Positions 1-17,701 of a stretch of 20,475 nucleotides of DNA are shown here, piece by piece; the stretch's first letter is position 1; each line of letters begins with the position of its first letter. The stretch lies in IMG/VR virus record IMGVR_UViG_3300005471_000057, positions 1 through 20,475 of that record; one strand, 5' to 3'. This DNA comes from a virus. A program made the translations under genes and the position numbers. Under the pieces are notes generated by a model that saw nothing but the letters and a program-made list of their open reading frames with translations, did no database searches and was not told the origin of the DNA.

Positions 1-2
1 CC

Positions 3-290
3 GAACTGGCCGCGCCCAAGGGTGGTCGCCCCAAGGGAAACCATTCCAATGGAACAGTTTCTAAGCCTGGCAACAGCGAGACCTACATCCTTCGCCGGTT
101 GAAGCGGGATCGTCCCGACCTCGCCGAGCTGGTCCTTGACGGCAAGGTCACCGCCCGCGCCGCCGGCATCGCGGCCGGATTCATCAAGCCCAACATCAGC
201 GTTCCGCTCGATCCCGAACGACTCGCCCCTATCCTCCGCAAGAAACTCGACCCTGCCGCGCTCGACCGGCTCCGGGAGCTCCTTGGTTGA
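3..290 (+). CDS. small DNA-binding-like phage protein, 5' partial
   Basis: The reading frame is open from base 3, so the true start lies upstream of the window. The visible 95 residues begin with a basic, Gly/Pro-rich stretch (KGGRPKGNHSN) and continue with YILRRLKRDRPDLAELVLDG and an Ala-rich segment ending AAGFIKP. I know this pattern (YxLRRLxRDxPxLAxxVxxG, then an AAxxAGF segment) from small phage and plasmid proteins that sit beside replication or ParB-like genes; their function is not established to my knowledge. The stop TGA overlaps the TTG start of the next gene (TTGA), which suggests translational coupling. A DNA-binding role is inferred only from basic charge and context. Confidence 0.7.
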   Translation, partial: ELAAPKGGRPKGNHSNGTVSKPGNSETYILRRLKRDRPDLAELVLDGKVTARAAGIAAGFIKPNISVPLDPERLAPILRKKLDPAALDRLRELLG

Positions 291-1006
291 ACCATGCCGC
301 CCTCCGCTATGTCGTCGAGGTCAGCCCCTCGACCGGTGCCGCATGGCAGCTGCTCATGGTGATCGCCTACCGCGCCGACAAGACGACCGGCGAGTGCTAC
401 GCGTCCCGCCGCCGTCTCGCCGCTGAGGCCCGCATCTCGACCTCGACGATCCATCAGGCGCTGGAGGAGCTGCTCGCCAGTGGCGAACTGGAGATCCTGG
501 TGACCGGTGCCGGCCGTCGCGCAACCACCTACCGCATCACCCATAGCGGCTCGCTCACCGAGCCAAACCCGAATGGCGTAGTGGCTCGATTTGGAGGCCG
601 TAGTGGCTCGGTCGACCAACCCGTAGTGGCTCGCTCACCGGACGGGTCTATAGAAGGAAGGGAAGAACAAGAAGGGATTGAAGGACGCGCGCGCGACGCC
701 GCTCCGCCTGGCGGCGTCGCCACGCGCTCCAACGGCCAAGTCCCGCCGGACGCCGCCGCCGCCATCGCAGAGCTCAAAGCATCACTACGACGTGTCCCAA
801 GTGTCTCAGTGTCCCAACCGACGTCCGGACCCGTCGCGCGACCGGTGAGCGCCGCCGCAGCAGATGCGCGGCAGGCAGCTCCCGACCCCGCAGCAAAGGC
901 CCCACACCGTCGTGGCACCCGAGGACGCAAAGGCCGACGTGGACGTGAACCACCCGCACGCTGCCACCGGTCCAACACTCCCAACACGGCAAGGAGCCCG
1001 CCGTGA
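287..1006 (+). CDS. winged-helix replication-initiator-like protein
   Basis: 239 residues from TTG at 287, which overlaps the upstream stop; a GGGAG sits about 9 bases ahead. Residues 15-84 read as a winged helix: a helix around AAWQLLMVIAYRAD, then CYASRRRLAAEARISTSTIHQALEELLASGELEI, then a wing with TTYRI. This resembles the N-terminal domain of phage and plasmid replication initiators and of phage GntR-like helix-turn-helix proteins. Residues 86-135 are low complexity and are encoded by DNA repeats that do not share one reading frame (see the repeat entry). The C-terminal 100 residues are Ala/Pro/Arg-rich without a recognisable fold. The domain layout (DNA-binding N-terminus, repeat-coded middle, variable tail) recalls lambda O. 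A plain transcription regulator is the main alternative. Confidence 0.75.
   Translation: MNHAALRYVVEVSPSTGAAWQLLMVIAYRADKTTGECYASRRRLAAEARISTSTIHQALEELLASGELEILVTGAGRRATTYRITHSGSLTEPNPNGVVARFGGRSGSVDQPVVARSPDGSIEGREEQEGIEGRARDAAPPGGVATRSNGQVPPDAAAAIAELKASLRRVPSVSVSQPTSGPVARPVSAAAADARQAAPDPAAKAPHRRGTRGRKGRRGREPPARCHRSNTPNTARSPP
542..633 (+). repeat. four iteron-like 12-bp repeats (CGTAGTGGCTCG)
   Basis: Three exact copies of CGTAGTGGCTCG occupy 577-588, 599-610 and 622-633. A fourth, CATAGCGGCTCG, is at 542-553. Copies one and four are both followed by CTCACCG, giving 19 bp with two mismatches. Start-to-start spacing is 35, 22 and 23 bp. The copies fall in two different codon phases of the surrounding gene (read as HSGS or RSGS in one phase and VVAR in the other), so the conservation is in the DNA and not in the protein. 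This fits iterons bound by the protein that the same gene encodes. Confidence 0.7.
647..684 (+). other. AT-rich polypurine stretch, candidate duplex-unwinding element
   Basis: By my count 22 of 38 bases are A or T, in a region that is otherwise about one third A/T. Almost every base on the + strand is a purine. The stretch starts 13 bases after the last iteron-like repeat and is followed by an alternating CG run (acgcgcgcgcg). Lambda ori has the same order of iterons followed by an asymmetric A-rich segment. Function as an unwinding site is inference. Confidence 0.5.
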
Positions 1007-1176
1007 CCGTCGGCGAACTGCTCGACATCCTGCTGGACCCGGACGACCTCATCCCGCGGACACTGCCAGTCCGGATCGGCATGCTCGGCCACGACCTGAC
1101 GTGGGAGATCGAAGGTGCCCACGGCGCGCTCGCCGGCCCAAACCCAGAGATCGTGCTGGAGATCGAGGACCCGTGA
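1003..1176 (+). CDS. small hypothetical protein (57 aa)
   Basis: A GTG start at 1003 overlaps the previous stop as GTGA and has AAGGAG at 991-996, six bases upstream. The product begins VTVGELLDILLDPDDLIP and is acidic. It resembles small phage proteins of the form 'ELLxxLxxLDPDxPV' placed among early genes, but I cannot name a function. The combination of overlap, spacing and Shine-Dalgarno site makes it a credible gene despite its length. Confidence 0.65.
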   Translation: MTVGELLDILLDPDDLIPRTLPVRIGMLGHDLTWEIEGAHGALAGPNPEIVLEIEDP

Positions 1177-1200
1177 CCTTCGTCGTCGCCAAGGTCGACC

Positions 1201-1228
1201 ACCCACCCACCCACCCACCCACCCACCC
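1201..1228 (+). repeat. tetranucleotide repeat (ACCC)x7
   Basis: Seven perfect ACCC units, with a partial unit before them, lie between the stop at 1174-1176 and the AAGGAG site (1233-1238) of the next gene. Because the unit is four bases, slippage would change the spacing and frame of anything read through it. Here it lies in the leader of the next gene and not inside its coding frame. Confidence 0.85.
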
Positions 1229-1243
1229 CACCAAGGAGACCCC

Positions 1244-1627
1244 ATGCATGACCCCCTCGTCGTCGCGTTCACGATCCGCCGACCCTGGCCCAAGCGACGC
1301 CACAACCCCGCCCGATCCCGCTGGTGGCCCCCACTGATCACCGTGTGGCACCGCGAACCCAGCGGCCGCGATGCCGGCACCGTCTGCGGCTGGCGGACCC
1401 ACTGGCGCCACCCACACCACTGGCATCTCCAAGTCCACCCAACCCAGACGCTGAAGCGGTGGCTGTGGTCCCGCTGCGCATGGTGCGGCGGCCGGTTCCG
1501 GTGGGGCACGGCACCATGCAGCCTCGACTGGAACGGTCCCGGGCCACGCTGGTTCCGTGGTGAGCCGATGGTGCTCCACGGCGAATGTGACACCGAACGA
1601 TCGAAGACGAAGAAACCCGTCCCGTGA
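1244..1627 (+). CDS. Trp-rich putative zinc-binding phage protein
   Basis: 127 residues from ATG 1244, chosen because AAGGAG lies five bases upstream at 1233-1238. The product is rich in Trp, His and Arg, and has a CxxC pair at C78/C81 (SRCAWCGG) plus C92 and H112/C115 near the end (LHGEC), consistent with one bound zinc. The sequence pattern (WHxxPSGxDxGTVC, then HHWHLQV, then a CxxC and DWNGPGPRWFRGE) matches a family common in actinobacteriophage genomes that, as far as I recall, has no assigned function. It heads the series of small genes up to 3150. Confidence 0.8.
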   Translation: MHDPLVVAFTIRRPWPKRRHNPARSRWWPPLITVWHREPSGRDAGTVCGWRTHWRHPHHWHLQVHPTQTLKRWLWSRCAWCGGRFRWGTAPCSLDWNGPGPRWFRGEPMVLHGECDTERSKTKKPVP

Positions 1628-5863: not shown

Positions 5864-7272
5864 TGGGGTGGATCACCGGACGGAAGACGATCGGGCTGCA
5901 GGTCCCCTCCGGCGACCAGAACGTCATCCAGATCCCCCCATTCGGTGGTGGCAAGCCGAATCTGGACGGTGCGCTCTATCCCGATTCGAGCTATGAGACG
6001 TTCGCGCGGAACGGGTATGGCCGCAACGAACTCGTCTACGCGTGCATCACTGAGAAGGCCACCTCGCTGCCCCAGTCGATTCTGCGGGTGTATCCGACAG
6101 GGAAGATGGGCGGGGAACCACTCGAGGACCACCGGCTCCGCCGGCTGATCAGCCAGCCGAACCCGGTCACCAACGAGTTCGAGTTCTTCGAACTCGGCGT
6201 CACCTACCTCGACCTTGCCGGCAACATGCCGATCCTGATCCAGCGGGCACGGGATGGGTTGCCGGCGGAGTTGTGGCCGTTGCGCCCTGACTTGTTGCGG
6301 GTGTTTCCGACGAACAATCCGCGGATCTGGGACTACGGCTACTCGCTGGACCCCTCCGCGGGGGTGCGGGGGTCGCTGATGGATGTGGTCCCGATCCCAC
6401 GTGGGGATCTGATCCACATCAAGTACCCGAATCCGTTGGATCAGTATTTCGGGCAGCCGCCCTTGCGTCCCGCCGCGACGGCGACGTCGCTGGACAATTC
6501 CGCGTCGGATTTCGTGGAGACGCTGCTCCGCAACCATGCCGTGCCGGGGATCGTCATCACGACCGCGGAGGCGACCAACGACGAGGTCACCAAGAAACTG
6601 AAGGCGAAATGGAAGCAGGCGTTCGGCGGGGCCCGCCGCGGTGAGCCGGCGTTCCTCCAGCAGGGCATGGCCGTGGAGATGCTCGGCCTCAACCTCCGCG
6701 ACCTTGAGTTCCCCGACCTGCGGGCGACGACGGAGAGCCACATCTGCATGGTGCTTGGGGTTCCCCCGATCCTGATCGGCGCGAAGGTCGGCTTGGACCG
6801 CTCCACGTTCACGAACTACCGGGAAGCCCGTGCGTCGTTTTGGGAGGAGACGGTGATCCCGCTCCAGAGGCGGTTCCTCGAGCCGGTGAAGACTAGGCTG
6901 TTGCCGGAGTTCTCGGGGGTTGGGCGGTCGCGGGTTGAGGTGCGATGGGACAACTCCGAGGTGCTGGCCCTGCAGGAGTCGGTGCAGGCCAAATGGGAGC
7001 GGGCCACCAACGCGCTCGCGCGTGGCGGGATCACGTTGAACGACTTCCGCCGCACGGTCGAGCTCGACCCGGTTGCCGGGGGTGACGTGTTCCTGATCCC
7101 CGCAGGGGTGACCGCGAGCCCTGCCGACCAGATCGGCGCACCACCAGCAGCGCCACCGGCCCCGGACCAGCAGCAGCAGCCACCGCAGTTGCAGGCAGCC
7201 AGCTACGCCGACCGGTTCCTGGCGGAGCTTCTGGCGACGAACGGAGATCGGCGTGCCCTGGAACCCCGCTAG
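5863..7272 (+). CDS. HK97-family portal protein
   Basis: 469 residues from ATG 5863 (GTG 5860 is an in-frame alternative). Typical features: NELVYACITEKATSLPQSILRVY near residues 52-74, ISQPNPVTNEFEFFE, the PIPRGDLIHIKYPNPLDQYFGQPPL segment, ESHICMVLGVPPILIGAKVGLDRSTFTNYREA, and WEETVIPLQRRFLEP. The protein forms the dodecameric ring at the capsid vertex through which DNA passes. The C-terminus is Pro/Gln-rich, then YADRFLAELLATNGDRRALEPR. The last codons seem altered by insertion of the minus-strand HNH gene: before insertion the frame would read ...RALEARP, stop. Confidence 0.95.
   Translation: MGWITGRKTIGLQVPSGDQNVIQIPPFGGGKPNLDGALYPDSSYETFARNGYGRNELVYACITEKATSLPQSILRVYPTGKMGGEPLEDHRLRRLISQPNPVTNEFEFFELGVTYLDLAGNMPILIQRARDGLPAELWPLRPDLLRVFPTNNPRIWDYGYSLDPSAGVRGSLMDVVPIPRGDLIHIKYPNPLDQYFGQPPLRPAATATSLDNSASDFVETLLRNHAVPGIVITTAEATNDEVTKKLKAKWKQAFGGARRGEPAFLQQGMAVEMLGLNLRDLEFPDLRATTESHICMVLGVPPILIGAKVGLDRSTFTNYREARASFWEETVIPLQRRFLEPVKTRLLPEFSGVGRSRVEVRWDNSEVLALQESVQAKWERATNALARGGITLNDFRRTVELDPVAGGDVFLIPAGVTASPADQIGAPPAAPPAPDQQQQPPQLQAASYADRFLAELLATNGDRRALEPR
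7256..7263 (+). repeat. 8-bp direct repeat CCCTGGAA, left copy (insertion junction)
   Basis: Matches 7783-7790. The two copies flank the minus-strand HNH gene and mark the probable insertion point. Confidence 0.65.
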
Positions 7273-7283
7273 ATGTGGTTCCA
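7259..7283. terminator. inverted repeat at convergent gene ends
   Basis: TGGAACC (7259-7265) and GGTTCCA (7277-7283) form 7-bp arms around an 11-base loop that contains the overlapping stop codons of portal (+) and HNH (-). It could be a weak bidirectional terminator; there is no T-run. Confidence 0.3.
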
Positions 7284-7745
7284 GCGTTGGCCATGCACGA
7301 TGCGGCTGATCTGCGATGGATCGACGCCGAAGCGGCGGGCGATGTCCGCCCGAGAGAGACCGTCGGTCGTAAGTGCCCGGATGCGCTGGATGTCATCGGC
7401 GGTGAGTTTGGCGAACCGGTGTGCTTCGCCTTTGCCGTGGATGGAGCCGGCCATCCGACCCTTGGCCACCGCGTCCTGGATGTTGTCAGAACCAGACCCG
7501 ACCCACAGATGATCCGGGCGAACACACAGCGGTGTATCGCACCTGTGGAGAACCATCTCGCCGGGGCGGAGCGGACGGTTCGCGCGTTCCCACGCATAGC
7601 GGTGCGCGCTGATCCATTGGGACTTGCCATCGGCAAAACCGACGTAGAAGCGGCCATAGCCGCTGAGGCCGCGACTGCTGAGCCAGAGCCAGCATTCGCC
7701 GCTGCGGTCGACCTGCTCATCGAAACTGCGTCGTCGGCGGGGCAT
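7269..7745 (-). CDS. free-standing HNH homing endonuclease with C-terminal helix-turn-helix
   Basis: 158 residues, opposite in direction to all neighbouring genes. Residues 18-97 match the HNH_3-type layout: CWLW, GYGRF, SAHRYAWE (H48), a VLHRCD core (H67, C69, D70), PLCVRPDHLWVG (C74, H79) and SDNIQDAVAKGR (N88). Residues 113-152 (LTADDIQRIRAL, then SRADIARRFGVDPSQISRIV) form a helix-turn-helix that would position the nuclease on DNA. Free-standing homing nucleases of this type spread by cutting alleles that lack them. The start ATG has only a poorly spaced AAGG in front. Its stop overlaps the portal stop through CTAG. Confidence 0.9.
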   Translation of the reverse strand: MPRRRRSFDEQVDRSGECWLWLSSRGLSGYGRFYVGFADGKSQWISAHRYAWERANRPLRPGEMVLHRCDTPLCVRPDHLWVGSGSDNIQDAVAKGRMAGSIHGKGEAHRFAKLTADDIQRIRALTTDGLSRADIARRFGVDPSQISRIVHGQRWNHI

Positions 7746-7770
7746 GCCTTGAGATTACCACTAATAGGCG

Positions 7771-10840: not shown

Positions 10841-12640
10841 ATGGTCTGGAATGACATCAAGGTCTACCCGTCCTACTCTGCCCCGTATGGCTCCGACGTG
10901 ATCGTCCCCAACGCGCTGCACCACTTTGACGCGCACAACTCCAGGGGTCTGCATGAGGCGTCCTGCCGCGGGATCATCATCACCCTGGGGGACGTGTGGA
11001 CGTTCGAGTCGCCGTTGTTGGATCAGCTCGCCGTCGGCGCGTGGGTGCCCGTCGACCATCTTGAGGTTCCCGACGTGGTCCGTCGCTGGTTCGAGGTGGT
11101 GGGTGCCGTCCCGATCGCCATGAGCCGATTTGGTGAGGCGGCGCTGCAGCGTGCCGACCTCAACCCGATGTACGTCCCCCACGGCATCGACCTCACGGTG
11201 TTCCGTCCTGGCGACAAGGCGGCCGCCCGCAAGGGCGTGGGTTTGCCGGAGGACGCGTTCGTGGTGGGGATGGTCGCCAACAACGTCGGCCGGGACGGCA
11301 ACCGCAAAGCATTCTCGGAGCAGATCGAGGCGTTCCGGCTGCTCCGCCGCAAGCACTCCGACGCGATGCTGGTCCTGCACTGCGACGTGGACCAGCCCGC
11401 CGGGATGCGCCTCCGCCCGTTCCTCGAGCGGACCCTTCCCAAAGGCAGCTACACCTACACCGACATTTACGCCTACCGCAAGGGCCTCAACCCAGCGGCG
11501 GTTGCAGAGATCCACCGCGCCGCCGACGTCCTCTCCAACTGCTCCTATGGAGAGGGGTTCGGCATCCCCATCATCGAAGCGCAAGCGTGCGGCACCCCGG
11601 TCATCGTCACCGACGCCACCGCGATGCCGGAACTCGTCGGCGCTGGTTGGAAGGTCGGCTACGAGCGGCTCTGGCACGACTCGCAGGGCGCGTGGGCCGC
11701 CAAACCGCTGATCGGTGACATCGTCCAGGCGTACGAGGAAGCCTACGACCACGCGCGGGATGAGGATCTGCGGGCGATGGCGTGGGCGTTCGCGCAGGAC
11801 TATGACGCCGACCGGATCACCCAGGAATACTGGAAGCCGGTCCTGGAACGGTTCGAGGCCGCCCTGGAGCTCCGCCGCCAAGACCTGACCCACCCGCCGG
11901 ACCCGGCGCGGCTACCCGTCCAGATCCGTTCGGCGGATGGCCTGTTGTGGGTGGACCGTGGTGGGAAGGCCGGTGACCAGCTCGGCCCCGACCCCCATGA
12001 GGCCGATCTGTGGCCGATCCTGGAAGGGCTACTCCCCGAGGGTGGCGTGTTCCTGGATGTGGGCGCGCATGTGGGCCACTGGTCGCTGCGGCTCGCCCAT
12101 AAGGCATCGCGGGTGATCGCGGTCGAGGCGAACCCGGTGACCGCGTCCACGCTGCGTCGCAACATCGCCCTCAACGACCTCGGCCACAAGGTCGAGGTCA
12201 TCCAGATGGCCGCCTGGGATGAACCGGCCAGGCTCAGGTTGTTCGACCCCTACAACCAGATCGCCGGCGGTAGCACCAGGGTCCTGCCAGCCGACAACGG
12301 CGACGGGATAGTCGAGGCGGGGCGGCTCGACGAGGCGCTGTTCGATGAGCTGCACATTGACCTGATCAAGCTCGACGTCGAGGGCGCCGACATCCACGCG
12401 ATCGACGGGATGGCCGGCCTCTTCGCCAAGCACGGCCCGGCGCTGTTCATCGAACTGCATGACATCTACGGGTATTACACCCGCGCTGAGCTCGAGGCGT
12501 GTCTGGAACGGGTCGGCTATCAGTGGGAGGTCGCTCATACGATCCCGACCACGTGGATGCCTGATGGGGAAAGCGATGTCGTCCAGCAGGCCGATTACCT
12601 GCTTGCAACCCCTGCCCTGGTCCCAACGAAAGGAACCTGA
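10841..12640 (+). CDS. glycosyltransferase - FkbM methyltransferase fusion
   Basis: 599 residues from ATG 10841; the intended start is probably ATG 10696 (see the displaced N-terminal entry). Residues 1-345 are a GT-B-type glycosyltransferase: VPHGIDLTVFRPGD, VVGMVANNVGRDGNRKAF, and the sugar-nucleotide E-x7-E motif EGFGIPIIE (E238, E246) followed by ACGTPVIVTDATAMPEL. Residues 385-575 are an FkbM-type SAM methyltransferase: FLDVGAHVGHWS (motif I), VIAVEANP, RLDEALFD, IDLIKLDVEGAD and ALFIELHD. The enzyme would transfer a sugar and then O-methylate it. Phage glycosyltransferases near structural genes can modify virion proteins, so capsid or fibre proteins are the likely target. Starting at 10841 would remove the GYG part of the nucleotide-binding domain. 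Confidence 0.85.
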   Translation: MVWNDIKVYPSYSAPYGSDVIVPNALHHFDAHNSRGLHEASCRGIIITLGDVWTFESPLLDQLAVGAWVPVDHLEVPDVVRRWFEVVGAVPIAMSRFGEAALQRADLNPMYVPHGIDLTVFRPGDKAAARKGVGLPEDAFVVGMVANNVGRDGNRKAFSEQIEAFRLLRRKHSDAMLVLHCDVDQPAGMRLRPFLERTLPKGSYTYTDIYAYRKGLNPAAVAEIHRAADVLSNCSYGEGFGIPIIEAQACGTPVIVTDATAMPELVGAGWKVGYERLWHDSQGAWAAKPLIGDIVQAYEEAYDHARDEDLRAMAWAFAQDYDADRITQEYWKPVLERFEAALELRRQDLTHPPDPARLPVQIRSADGLLWVDRGGKAGDQLGPDPHEADLWPILEGLLPEGGVFLDVGAHVGHWSLRLAHKASRVIAVEANPVTASTLRRNIALNDLGHKVEVIQMAAWDEPARLRLFDPYNQIAGGSTRVLPADNGDGIVEAGRLDEALFDELHIDLIKLDVEGADIHAIDGMAGLFAKHGPALFIELHDIYGYYTRAELEACLERVGYQWEVAHTIPTTWMPDGESDVVQQADYLLATPALVPTKGT

Positions 12641-15847: not shown

Positions 15848-17701
15848 ATGGCACGGCTCGGCCGCCGGCAGCCGAACCGGCCCATCATCCTGCACGCCAA
15901 GGCACCGCTCGAGGTCCCCCAGCAGGTCGCGGGCTTGCGGTTGTGGCTGGCCGCCGACAAGATCACCGGCCTCTCCGGCGGCGCCGCCGTCTCCACCTGG
16001 GCGGACGCGAGTGGGCTTGGCAACGACGCCACCCAGACCACCGGCGCCGCGCAACCCACCTACCAGACCGCCGTCGTCAACGGCCTCCCGGTCGTCCGGT
16101 TCGACATCACCGGGACCGCCGACTGGATGAACCTCGCCACCGCCGATTTCCTCGCCGCGACCAACGCTATCGGCGCCATCGCGTTCTTCGCGGTCGTCAA
16201 GATGAGCGCGACCGACGCGACCACCCGCGACTACCTGTCAATCTCGACCCCGACCGGTGCTAACGCTCGCTTTAAGGCCGGCCAGCGCGCCCCCGCCGCG
16301 AACACGTGGGGCATGACCGTCCGACGCGCTGACACTGACGGCGCCGCCAGCCTCGAGGCTGGCACGTCTGACACCTCCTGGCATGTCCACTCGGCGATCA
16401 TCGACTACGTCAACGGCGACGGGTTCCTCAACCTCGACGGCACCCAGATCGGGTCGAACCTGGCGCTGACCACCTCGGGCACGACGTCGGCGACGAACTC
16501 CATCGCCTCGGCGGTCGGTGCCCGCGGAGATGGGCTCGGGGAGTTCTGGCCCGGCGACATCGCCGAACTGATCGTCTACGTCGGCGCCAACAAGATCGCC
16601 GACGCGGACCGGGATCTGGTCACCAACTACCTGCTCACCAAGTACGCCATCACCACTGGGACCAACTACACCCAGACGGTCACCGACCCGGAGGGCCTGC
16701 TCGACAGCCAGACCCAGGCCGCCAGCTACGCGCAGACGACAACCGACCCCGAAGGCGCCCTCGATGGGGCGGCGCAGGCTGCGACGTTCACGCAGACAGC
16801 GACCGACCCCGCAGGGATCCTCGACACCAGCTCGGCGTCGTTCGTCCTCTCCCAGACCATCACCGACCCCGTCGGCCTCCTGGACGCGGCCAGCCAGACC
16901 GCCACGTTGATCCGCAGCCAGACCGACCCGGAGGGCCTGCTCGACACCGCCAGTCAAGCGGCGAGCTTCACCCAGGCCCTGACCGACCCCGAAGGGCTGC
17001 TGGACGGGGTCACCTACGACAAGGGTGTGCTGCTCACCCTCACCGACCCGGTCGGGATCACCGATGGTGGCATCGCCACTTCCGCCCAGCTCACCCTGAC
17101 CGACCCGCTTGGCCTCCTCGATGCGGCGAACCAGATCACCACGGCCACCCGCAGCCAGACCGACCCCGAAGGGGTTCTGGACAGCCAGAGCCAGTCGCTG
17201 TCCGGCTCACAATCCCAGACCATCACCGACCCCGTCGGCCTGGTCGACAGCAGCCCGCAGGCCGCCAGCTCCACCCAAACGGCAACCGACCCGATCGGCC
17301 TGCTGGACGTCAAGGGTGAACAGCTTGACCGGCCACTCACCGACCCGGTCGGCCTCCTTGACAGCCAAGCCCGCCTCGCCGCCGCCACCCCGACGGTCAC
17401 CGACCCCGTCGGCCTGCTGGACGCCGCCAGCCAAAGCTTGGCCGCAGCGCAAGCAACAACTGACCCGGTCGGGATCACCGACAGCCGCACCCAGGACGCC
17501 ACCGGGCCGAGCGGCCAGACGCACATCAACCCCATCGGGATCACCGACCTGATCATCTACACCCTCGTCAACGTGGCGCCCCGATGGGTTGAGGCCGCCA
17601 GCACCGCCAGCGGCCTGGTCGAGGGCACCGGCATCACTGGCGGGATCGTGGAAGGTGCCTCGTTCAGCGTTGTCGTGATCGAAGGTTCCAGCAGCCTCTG
17701 A
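15848..17701 (+). CDS. LamG-like surface protein with TDPxGLLD repeat stalk
   Basis: 617 residues from ATG 15848 (AGGAGG a few bases upstream). Residues 25-270 look like a LamG/concanavalin-type jelly roll: GLRLWLAADKITGLSGG, VSTWADASGLGNDATQ, VVNGLPVVRFD, and GEFWPGDIAELIVYVGANKI. Residues 276-568 are about 15 imperfect 18-21-residue repeats centred on TDPxGLLD. The C-terminal 50 residues (VNVAPRWVEAA, then GLVEGTGITGGIVEGASFSV) may anchor or trimerise the protein. The layout suggests a carbohydrate-binding head on an extended stalk projecting from the virion. No signal peptide is present, so it is probably assembled rather than exported. Confidence 0.8.
   Translation: MARLGRRQPNRPIILHAKAPLEVPQQVAGLRLWLAADKITGLSGGAAVSTWADASGLGNDATQTTGAAQPTYQTAVVNGLPVVRFDITGTADWMNLATADFLAATNAIGAIAFFAVVKMSATDATTRDYLSISTPTGANARFKAGQRAPAANTWGMTVRRADTDGAASLEAGTSDTSWHVHSAIIDYVNGDGFLNLDGTQIGSNLALTTSGTTSATNSIASAVGARGDGLGEFWPGDIAELIVYVGANKIADADRDLVTNYLLTKYAITTGTNYTQTVTDPEGLLDSQTQAASYAQTTTDPEGALDGAAQAATFTQTATDPAGILDTSSASFVLSQTITDPVGLLDAASQTATLIRSQTDPEGLLDTASQAASFTQALTDPEGLLDGVTYDKGVLLTLTDPVGITDGGIATSAQLTLTDPLGLLDAANQITTATRSQTDPEGVLDSQSQSLSGSQSQTITDPVGLVDSSPQAASSTQTATDPIGLLDVKGEQLDRPLTDPVGLLDSQARLAAATPTVTDPVGLLDAASQSLAAAQATTDPVGITDSRTQDATGPSGQTHINPIGITDLIIYTLVNVAPRWVEAASTASGLVEGTGITGGIVEGASFSVVVIEGSSSL
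16673..17551 (+). repeat. about 15 tandem 54-63-bp coding repeats (TDPxGLLD)
   Basis: The core TDPEGLLD/TDPVGLLD/TDPVGITD recurs about every 19 residues, usually preceded by QT and followed by an Ala/Ser/Gln-rich linker. The DNA copies share stretches such as ACCGACCC and GGCCTGCTGGAC, so recombination or slippage could change copy number without breaking the frame. Confidence 0.85.

Follow-up and report, generated by a model that had tools for sequence, protein, structure and literature searches.

A probable lambda-like replication origin inside the initiator gene of a tailed phage

The window (the whole stretch of 20,475 nucleotides analyzed here) is a linear IMG/VR record and an incomplete fragment of a phage genome. 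It very probably contains the replication origin of a tailed phage, located inside the gene of the phage's own initiator. A lambda-like origin within this gene had been proposed in a first-pass annotation, and sequence comparison supports the proposal: in-gene repeats occur throughout the initiator class, recognition helix and repeats covary, and the layout recurs in a sister phage. Most comparative tests agreed with what an in-gene origin predicts, with no result against it. The genes of the window are arranged as in tailed phages, with an upstream small gene followed by the winged-helix gene, small genes, an HNH endonuclease, terminase, portal, protease and capsid. The host is probably an actinobacterium, as loosely inferred from GC content and gene similarity. 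The features of the candidate origin and its surroundings are as follows.

3–290, plus strand: upstream gene, its 5′ end cut by the record, encoding a small protein with a ...SETYILRRLKRDRPDLAE... motif
287–1006, plus strand: O-like/HTH_36 winged-helix replication-initiator gene (239 aa), with a TTG start that overlaps the upstream stop
305–544, plus strand: predicted N-terminal winged-helix DNA-binding domain, residues 7–86 (from a PHROG match over residues 1–86, a structure model and a profile)
437–466, plus strand: predicted recognition helix, residues 51–60, STSTIHQALE (from an alignment)
542–553, plus strand: iteron 1, CATAGCGGCTCG, two mismatches, codon phase 0
577–588, plus strand: iteron 2, CGTAGTGGCTCG, exact, codon phase 2
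599–610, plus strand: iteron 3, CGTAGTGGCTCG, exact, codon phase 0
622–633, plus strand: iteron 4, CGTAGTGGCTCG, exact, codon phase 2
~636–698, plus strand: strand-asymmetric purine tract, candidate unwinding element, with its A+T maximum at 645–686 and CTATAGAAG at 648
1170–1211, plus strand: 42 bp identical to the sister phage, a synteny anchor 3′ of the initiator

The gene that houses the repeats belongs to a family of replication initiators. In profile searches, its residues 1–86 align with the beginning of PHROG 6643 (replication initiation protein, 9.1e-8), with further matches of the initiator to PHROG 1032 (4.2e-6) and the O-like PHROG 391 (1.2e-5). Among Pfam families, HTH_36 (PF13730) is reached at 20.9 bits, below the curated cut-off of 25, and Phage_rep_O (PF04492) gives no match to the window initiator, while the initiator of another phage, L121, scores 80.5 bits. 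The winged-helix pattern is kept when the protein is aligned with initiators of named phages, and the profile of that alignment finds winged-helix DNA-binding chains in the PDB, including the chromosome replication initiation protein 2vn2. A single-sequence structure model predicts the order helix-helix-helix-strand-strand, at low confidence (pLDDT 57). These matches bear out the earlier placement of the repeats in the middle of a winged-helix, initiator-type gene. After the purine tract, the C-terminus of the initiator is of low complexity and without a domain recognized in profile searches. Several relatives of the upstream gene are located just 5′ of replication initiators. No helicase loader or helicase was found among the proteins of this 20-kb fragment that were put to profile searches.

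Within the gene, the 12-bp word is present as first described, in three exact copies (577, 599 and 622) and one with two changes (542). The reported steps of 22, 23 and 35 bp are likewise correct, their start-to-start order from iteron 1 to iteron 4 being 35, 22 and 23 bp. Counted from the TTG at 287, the copies occupy two codon phases, encoding (H/R)SGS or VVAR accordingly; no further phase is possible, as the word would contain a TAG stop in the third one. The copies at 542 and 622 agree over a longer 22 nt, ACCCrTAGyGGCTCGCTCACCG (539–560 and 619–640). As in lambda-type origins, several iterons lie within the coding sequence of the initiator, downstream of its DNA-binding domain. DnaA boxes, searched for at up to two mismatches, are absent from window positions 1–1500.

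Directly after the repeats, the first-pass annotation had noted an AT-rich polypurine run, and this run has the strongest purine bias of the 20-kb record: the 26 most purine-biased 38-mers of the whole record all begin within 636–661, with a maximum of 33 purines in 38. The 38-mers that begin at 645–649 contain 22 A+T in 38, tied for the highest value in the record. At ~58% A+T in a record with a mean of 32%, the tract is AT-rich in a relative sense. An AT-rich, strand-asymmetric region thus adjoins the iterons, again as in lambda-type origins. The element CTATAGAAG has a single copy in the window, at 648, and a single copy at the equivalent position of the sister phage.

This layout closely resembles known phage origins. 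Within O, lambda ori comprises four 19-bp iterons and a 49-bp region that is A-T rich and highly strand-asymmetric (PMC4488673), and lambda O and the window protein share an N-terminal DNA-binding part, four mid-gene iterons and an adjoining A-T rich, strand-asymmetric region (PMC4488673, PMC7466680). In the window, however, the repeat cores measure 12 bp, the protein is without a Phage_rep_O match, no lambda-P-like helicase loader was found in the fragment, and the phage is GC-rich. In SPP1, the direct repeats and AT-rich unwinding element of oriL are positioned inside initiator gene 38 (PMC6316719), as predicted for the window; SPP1 also possesses oriR as a second origin and gp39 as a known helicase loader, neither of which was seen in the window, an incomplete linear fragment. 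The design of the candidate origin matches lambda ori and SPP1 oriL, and is itself already known.

The window's own lineage was reached via the capsid gene. A capsid-based search led to a sister phage (L141, L146) with a capsid 90% identical, whose IMG/VR contigs 3300036854_000026 and 3300036860_000167 overlap at both ends at 99.98–100% identity (L141 1–1427 and 2825–14903; L146; L150 14008–15434), implying a circular genome of ~50.8 kb. At the syntenic locus, the sister encodes a different initiator (PHROG 2447, 3e-26) with in-gene repeats of the GTCACACC type that differ from those of the window, followed by CTATAGAAGTAGAAGTAGAAG, and it keeps the CTATAGAAG purine tract despite its other initiator and other repeats. 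The sister tract contains (TAGAAG)4 (L141 101–126), in keeping with the triplet pattern of bacterial DnaA-trio elements. In a third phage, L127, an upstream gene 80% identical to that of the window is followed by another PHROG 2447 initiator, which carries the in-gene inverted repeats TGTCCGAGCGGACA and TGTCCGCTCGGACA (L127 3610–3735) together with a shorter perfect inverted repeat. In the sister and L127, the repeats are inverted or of shorter length and were recognized by visual inspection and repeat search (the repeat-pair statistic counts one pair in the sister initiator and none in that of L127), so their support for the layout is qualitative. Window, sister and L127 differ in both initiator and repeats; both were swapped together, as predicted for an initiator-origin unit. 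Lambda, P22 and L likewise each have different iterons in their own initiator gene (PMC8022706); gene 18 of P22 and phage L parallels the window, sister and L127 in that related phages carry different iterons, in other hosts and with other repeat words (PMC8022706). In the sister genome, the detrended GC-skew minimum lies 2.6 kb from the repeats, and the raw minimum 22 kb away. No usable relative with the same initiator came from the related-locus search, tblastn on phages and plasmids, or the sister records. The best match, Pavtok gp51 (E 7), was rejected as a direct relative and serves as a lead only.

Several other parts of the window stand out. At 7264–7768, between the portal and protease genes, a minus-strand ORF (7269–7745) encodes HNH_3 and helix-turn-helix domains; the portal and protease alignments of the sister abut without this ORF, which looks like a homing-endonuclease insertion. 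The region 10841–12640, 3′ of the capsid gene, encodes a 599-aa protein with glycosyltransferase and methyltransferase matches in one chain, and a virion protein at 15848–17701 carries about a dozen (T)DPxGLLDxxxQ-like repeats arrayed at its C-terminus. A CCAC/CCCA tandem run at 1199–1230, 5′ of a gene start, is longer than in the sister, which has CCACCCACCAAGG.

The best surviving alternative, which we regard as unlikely, is that the repeats are operators through which the winged-helix protein represses or times its own operon from within the gene, with the origin located elsewhere. Winged-helix proteins are mostly transcription factors, and autoregulatory binding sites are commonplace. Yet the sites lie ~255–350 bp into the coding sequence, not at a promoter, and they adjoin a strand-asymmetric AT maximum, like lambda ori. 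The best profile matches of the protein are replication initiators, and the sister phage retains the layout with an initiator of another family.

An origin within the initiator gene is also favored by the wider class. As a first sample, 11 further HTH_36/O-like genes from named phages were picked by protein homology, not by repeats; the initiator collection also took in genes of other initiator families. In-gene repeats 21–24 bp apart are present in 10 of these 11 initiators versus 2 of 105 neighboring genes, some of the phages being related and the genes not all independent; this corresponds to 20 pairs in 9.2 kb versus 2 pairs in 64 kb of neighboring genes. As a second sample, 80 IMG/VR loci were condensed to 37 distinct genes, 35 of which have such repeats (59 pairs in 28.9 kb versus 2 pairs in 124 kb of flanks). 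In a third sample, around Pavtok gp51, exact 22-then-23-bp steps were often found. The window steps of 22 and 23 bp fall within the class range of 21–24 bp. Erwinia phage Pavtok, Klebsiella phage SJM3, Vibrio phage K74 and Enterobacteria phage mEp460 have alignable winged helices (20–34% identity over the first 95 aa) and in-gene repeats at 21–24 bp steps, marking putative origins; they differ from the window in their repeat words and in C-termini that are not recognizably related. A low-complexity, strand-biased tract is often found 3′ of the class repeats (AACCAGTCA-type in mEp460-like phages). Its type varies, being purine in the window and sister and AC-rich or pyrimidine-rich in other phages, and the purine tract was therefore rejected as a universal class feature.

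Viral contigs were also scanned for the word TAGTGGCTC, which was rejected as a common iteron because, among the matches listed, most are Gly-Ser coding repeats. In-gene repeats of TAGTGGCTC occur in two unrelated phages, L121 (1274–1345, Phage_rep_O) and L070 (3610–3690, HTH_36). As both were found through the word itself, and a few chance matches are expected among many in-gene arrays, they are not counted as evidence, and the shared core is likely a coincidence.

The first-pass annotation had also suggested asking whether the repeat word changes together with the winged-helix residues, and such covariation is found with the recognition helix of a related family, the mEp460-type initiators, which are 20–25% identical to the window protein. 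In each of 51 mEp460-type genes, the final repeat ahead of the tract was picked out by its position, and pairwise distances were compared. Repeat distance correlates with recognition-helix distance at r 0.886 and with the rest of the domain at r 0.211 (n=51 for both); the partial correlations are 0.88 for the helix given the rest and 0.02 for the rest given the helix (Mantel p 5e-4). The best single columns are 69 (in the wing), 52, 53, 55 and 50. This suggests that the protein reads the repeats in the mEp460-type family. Among these initiators (L159, L160, L161, L170–L249), iteron words such as GTGTAGGCCCAGAAAGCAC, GTAGCACCAGATAGCAC, GGTGACAGAGAGTCACC and GGTGCAGGAGATTCACC diverge between close relatives and covary with helix residues 50–55 and wing residue 69, and the tract CAGAACCAGTCACTCTTTTGAACCAGTCA 3′ of the iterons is nearly constant. 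In the more diverse, Pavtok-like family, the partial correlation is 0.36 for the helix (p 5e-4) and 0.42 for the rest of the domain, a significant covariation that is inseparable from general relatedness and was rejected as a helix-specific signal. The Klebsiella phages SJM3 and SopranoGao offer a natural swap: their initiator C-termini are 77% identical, their winged helices 27%, and their repeats differ, whereas Pavtok and SJM3 have winged helices 83% identical and the same repeat word. This points to a pairing of helix and repeat, and physical linkage could be an alternative cause of the co-inheritance.

Across families, S52/T53/I69 (mEp460 numbering) tends toward GTAG-containing words and R52 toward GTG-type words. 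The window residues S53, T54 and wing I70 align with these covarying columns, S52/T53/I69, and the window's own word contains GTAG. This weakly suggests that a helix-word code may extend to the window, the pattern involving few families and having been seen after the fact. That the whole class, including the window, might share a readable code, in which a few helix and wing residues set the iteron word and specificity diversifies fast while the tract stays constant, is a tentative idea that we consider somewhat less probable than its converse.

These class-wide patterns also bear on the idea that the repeats form a partition (centromere-like) or packaging site, which we consider very improbable. 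Arrays of short repeats are known at parS and pac sites too, and the upstream gene is without an assigned function. Against this, no ParA/ParB-type gene was recognized among the searched proteins, the terminase gene lies ~3 kb off, homologous initiators from many phages have their repeats after the winged-helix domain, and in one family the repeats covary with the recognition helix.

To a similarly small degree, the repeats may be a chance cluster or a formerly functional, decayed origin, as the two changes in one copy and the low-complexity C-terminus without a recognized domain might suggest. However, CGTAGTGGCTCG is the sole non-simple 12-mer of the record with three exact copies within 100 bp; a comparable cluster appeared in none of 300 order-3 Markov genomes, and three such copies within 100 bp in none of 20,000 codon-order shuffles of the gene. 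Moreover, three copies show no change over their 12 bp although the spacers between them have diverged, and the initiator gene is intact. The least credible explanation is protein-sequence selection or duplication in a low-complexity linker: the region does code for SGS/VVAR motifs in a linker, and other TAGTGGCTC repeats in viral contigs are mostly Gly-Ser coding (among the matches listed), but the copies are split between two codon phases, with different peptides encoded, 52 of 89 class repeat pairs are out of codon phase, and none of 20,000 synonymous, protein-preserving codon permutations recreates three exact copies within 100 bp, which upholds the earlier claim that selection on the protein does not explain them.

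For the preferred reading, an origin inside the initiator gene, we propose the following order of events. Through its N-terminal winged helix, the gene product would bind the four iterons at 542–633, where the 22- and 23-bp steps, about two helical turns each, would align the bound proteins in a stack along the same face of the DNA. By analogy with lambda, the resulting nucleoprotein complex may strain and melt the adjoining purine-rich, AT-richest tract (~636–698), at which a helicase would then be loaded.

The analysis thereby assigns a likely origin to a phage group that is represented by only a few metagenomic contigs here, and finds the lambda layout (a winged helix, iterons at two helical turns and a strand-asymmetric tract) across unrelated phages. 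The covariation of helix and repeat in the wider class is its most interesting by-product. It may provide a way to predict the origin that a given initiator recognizes, and would make the evolution of replication specificity testable through helix swaps in phages.
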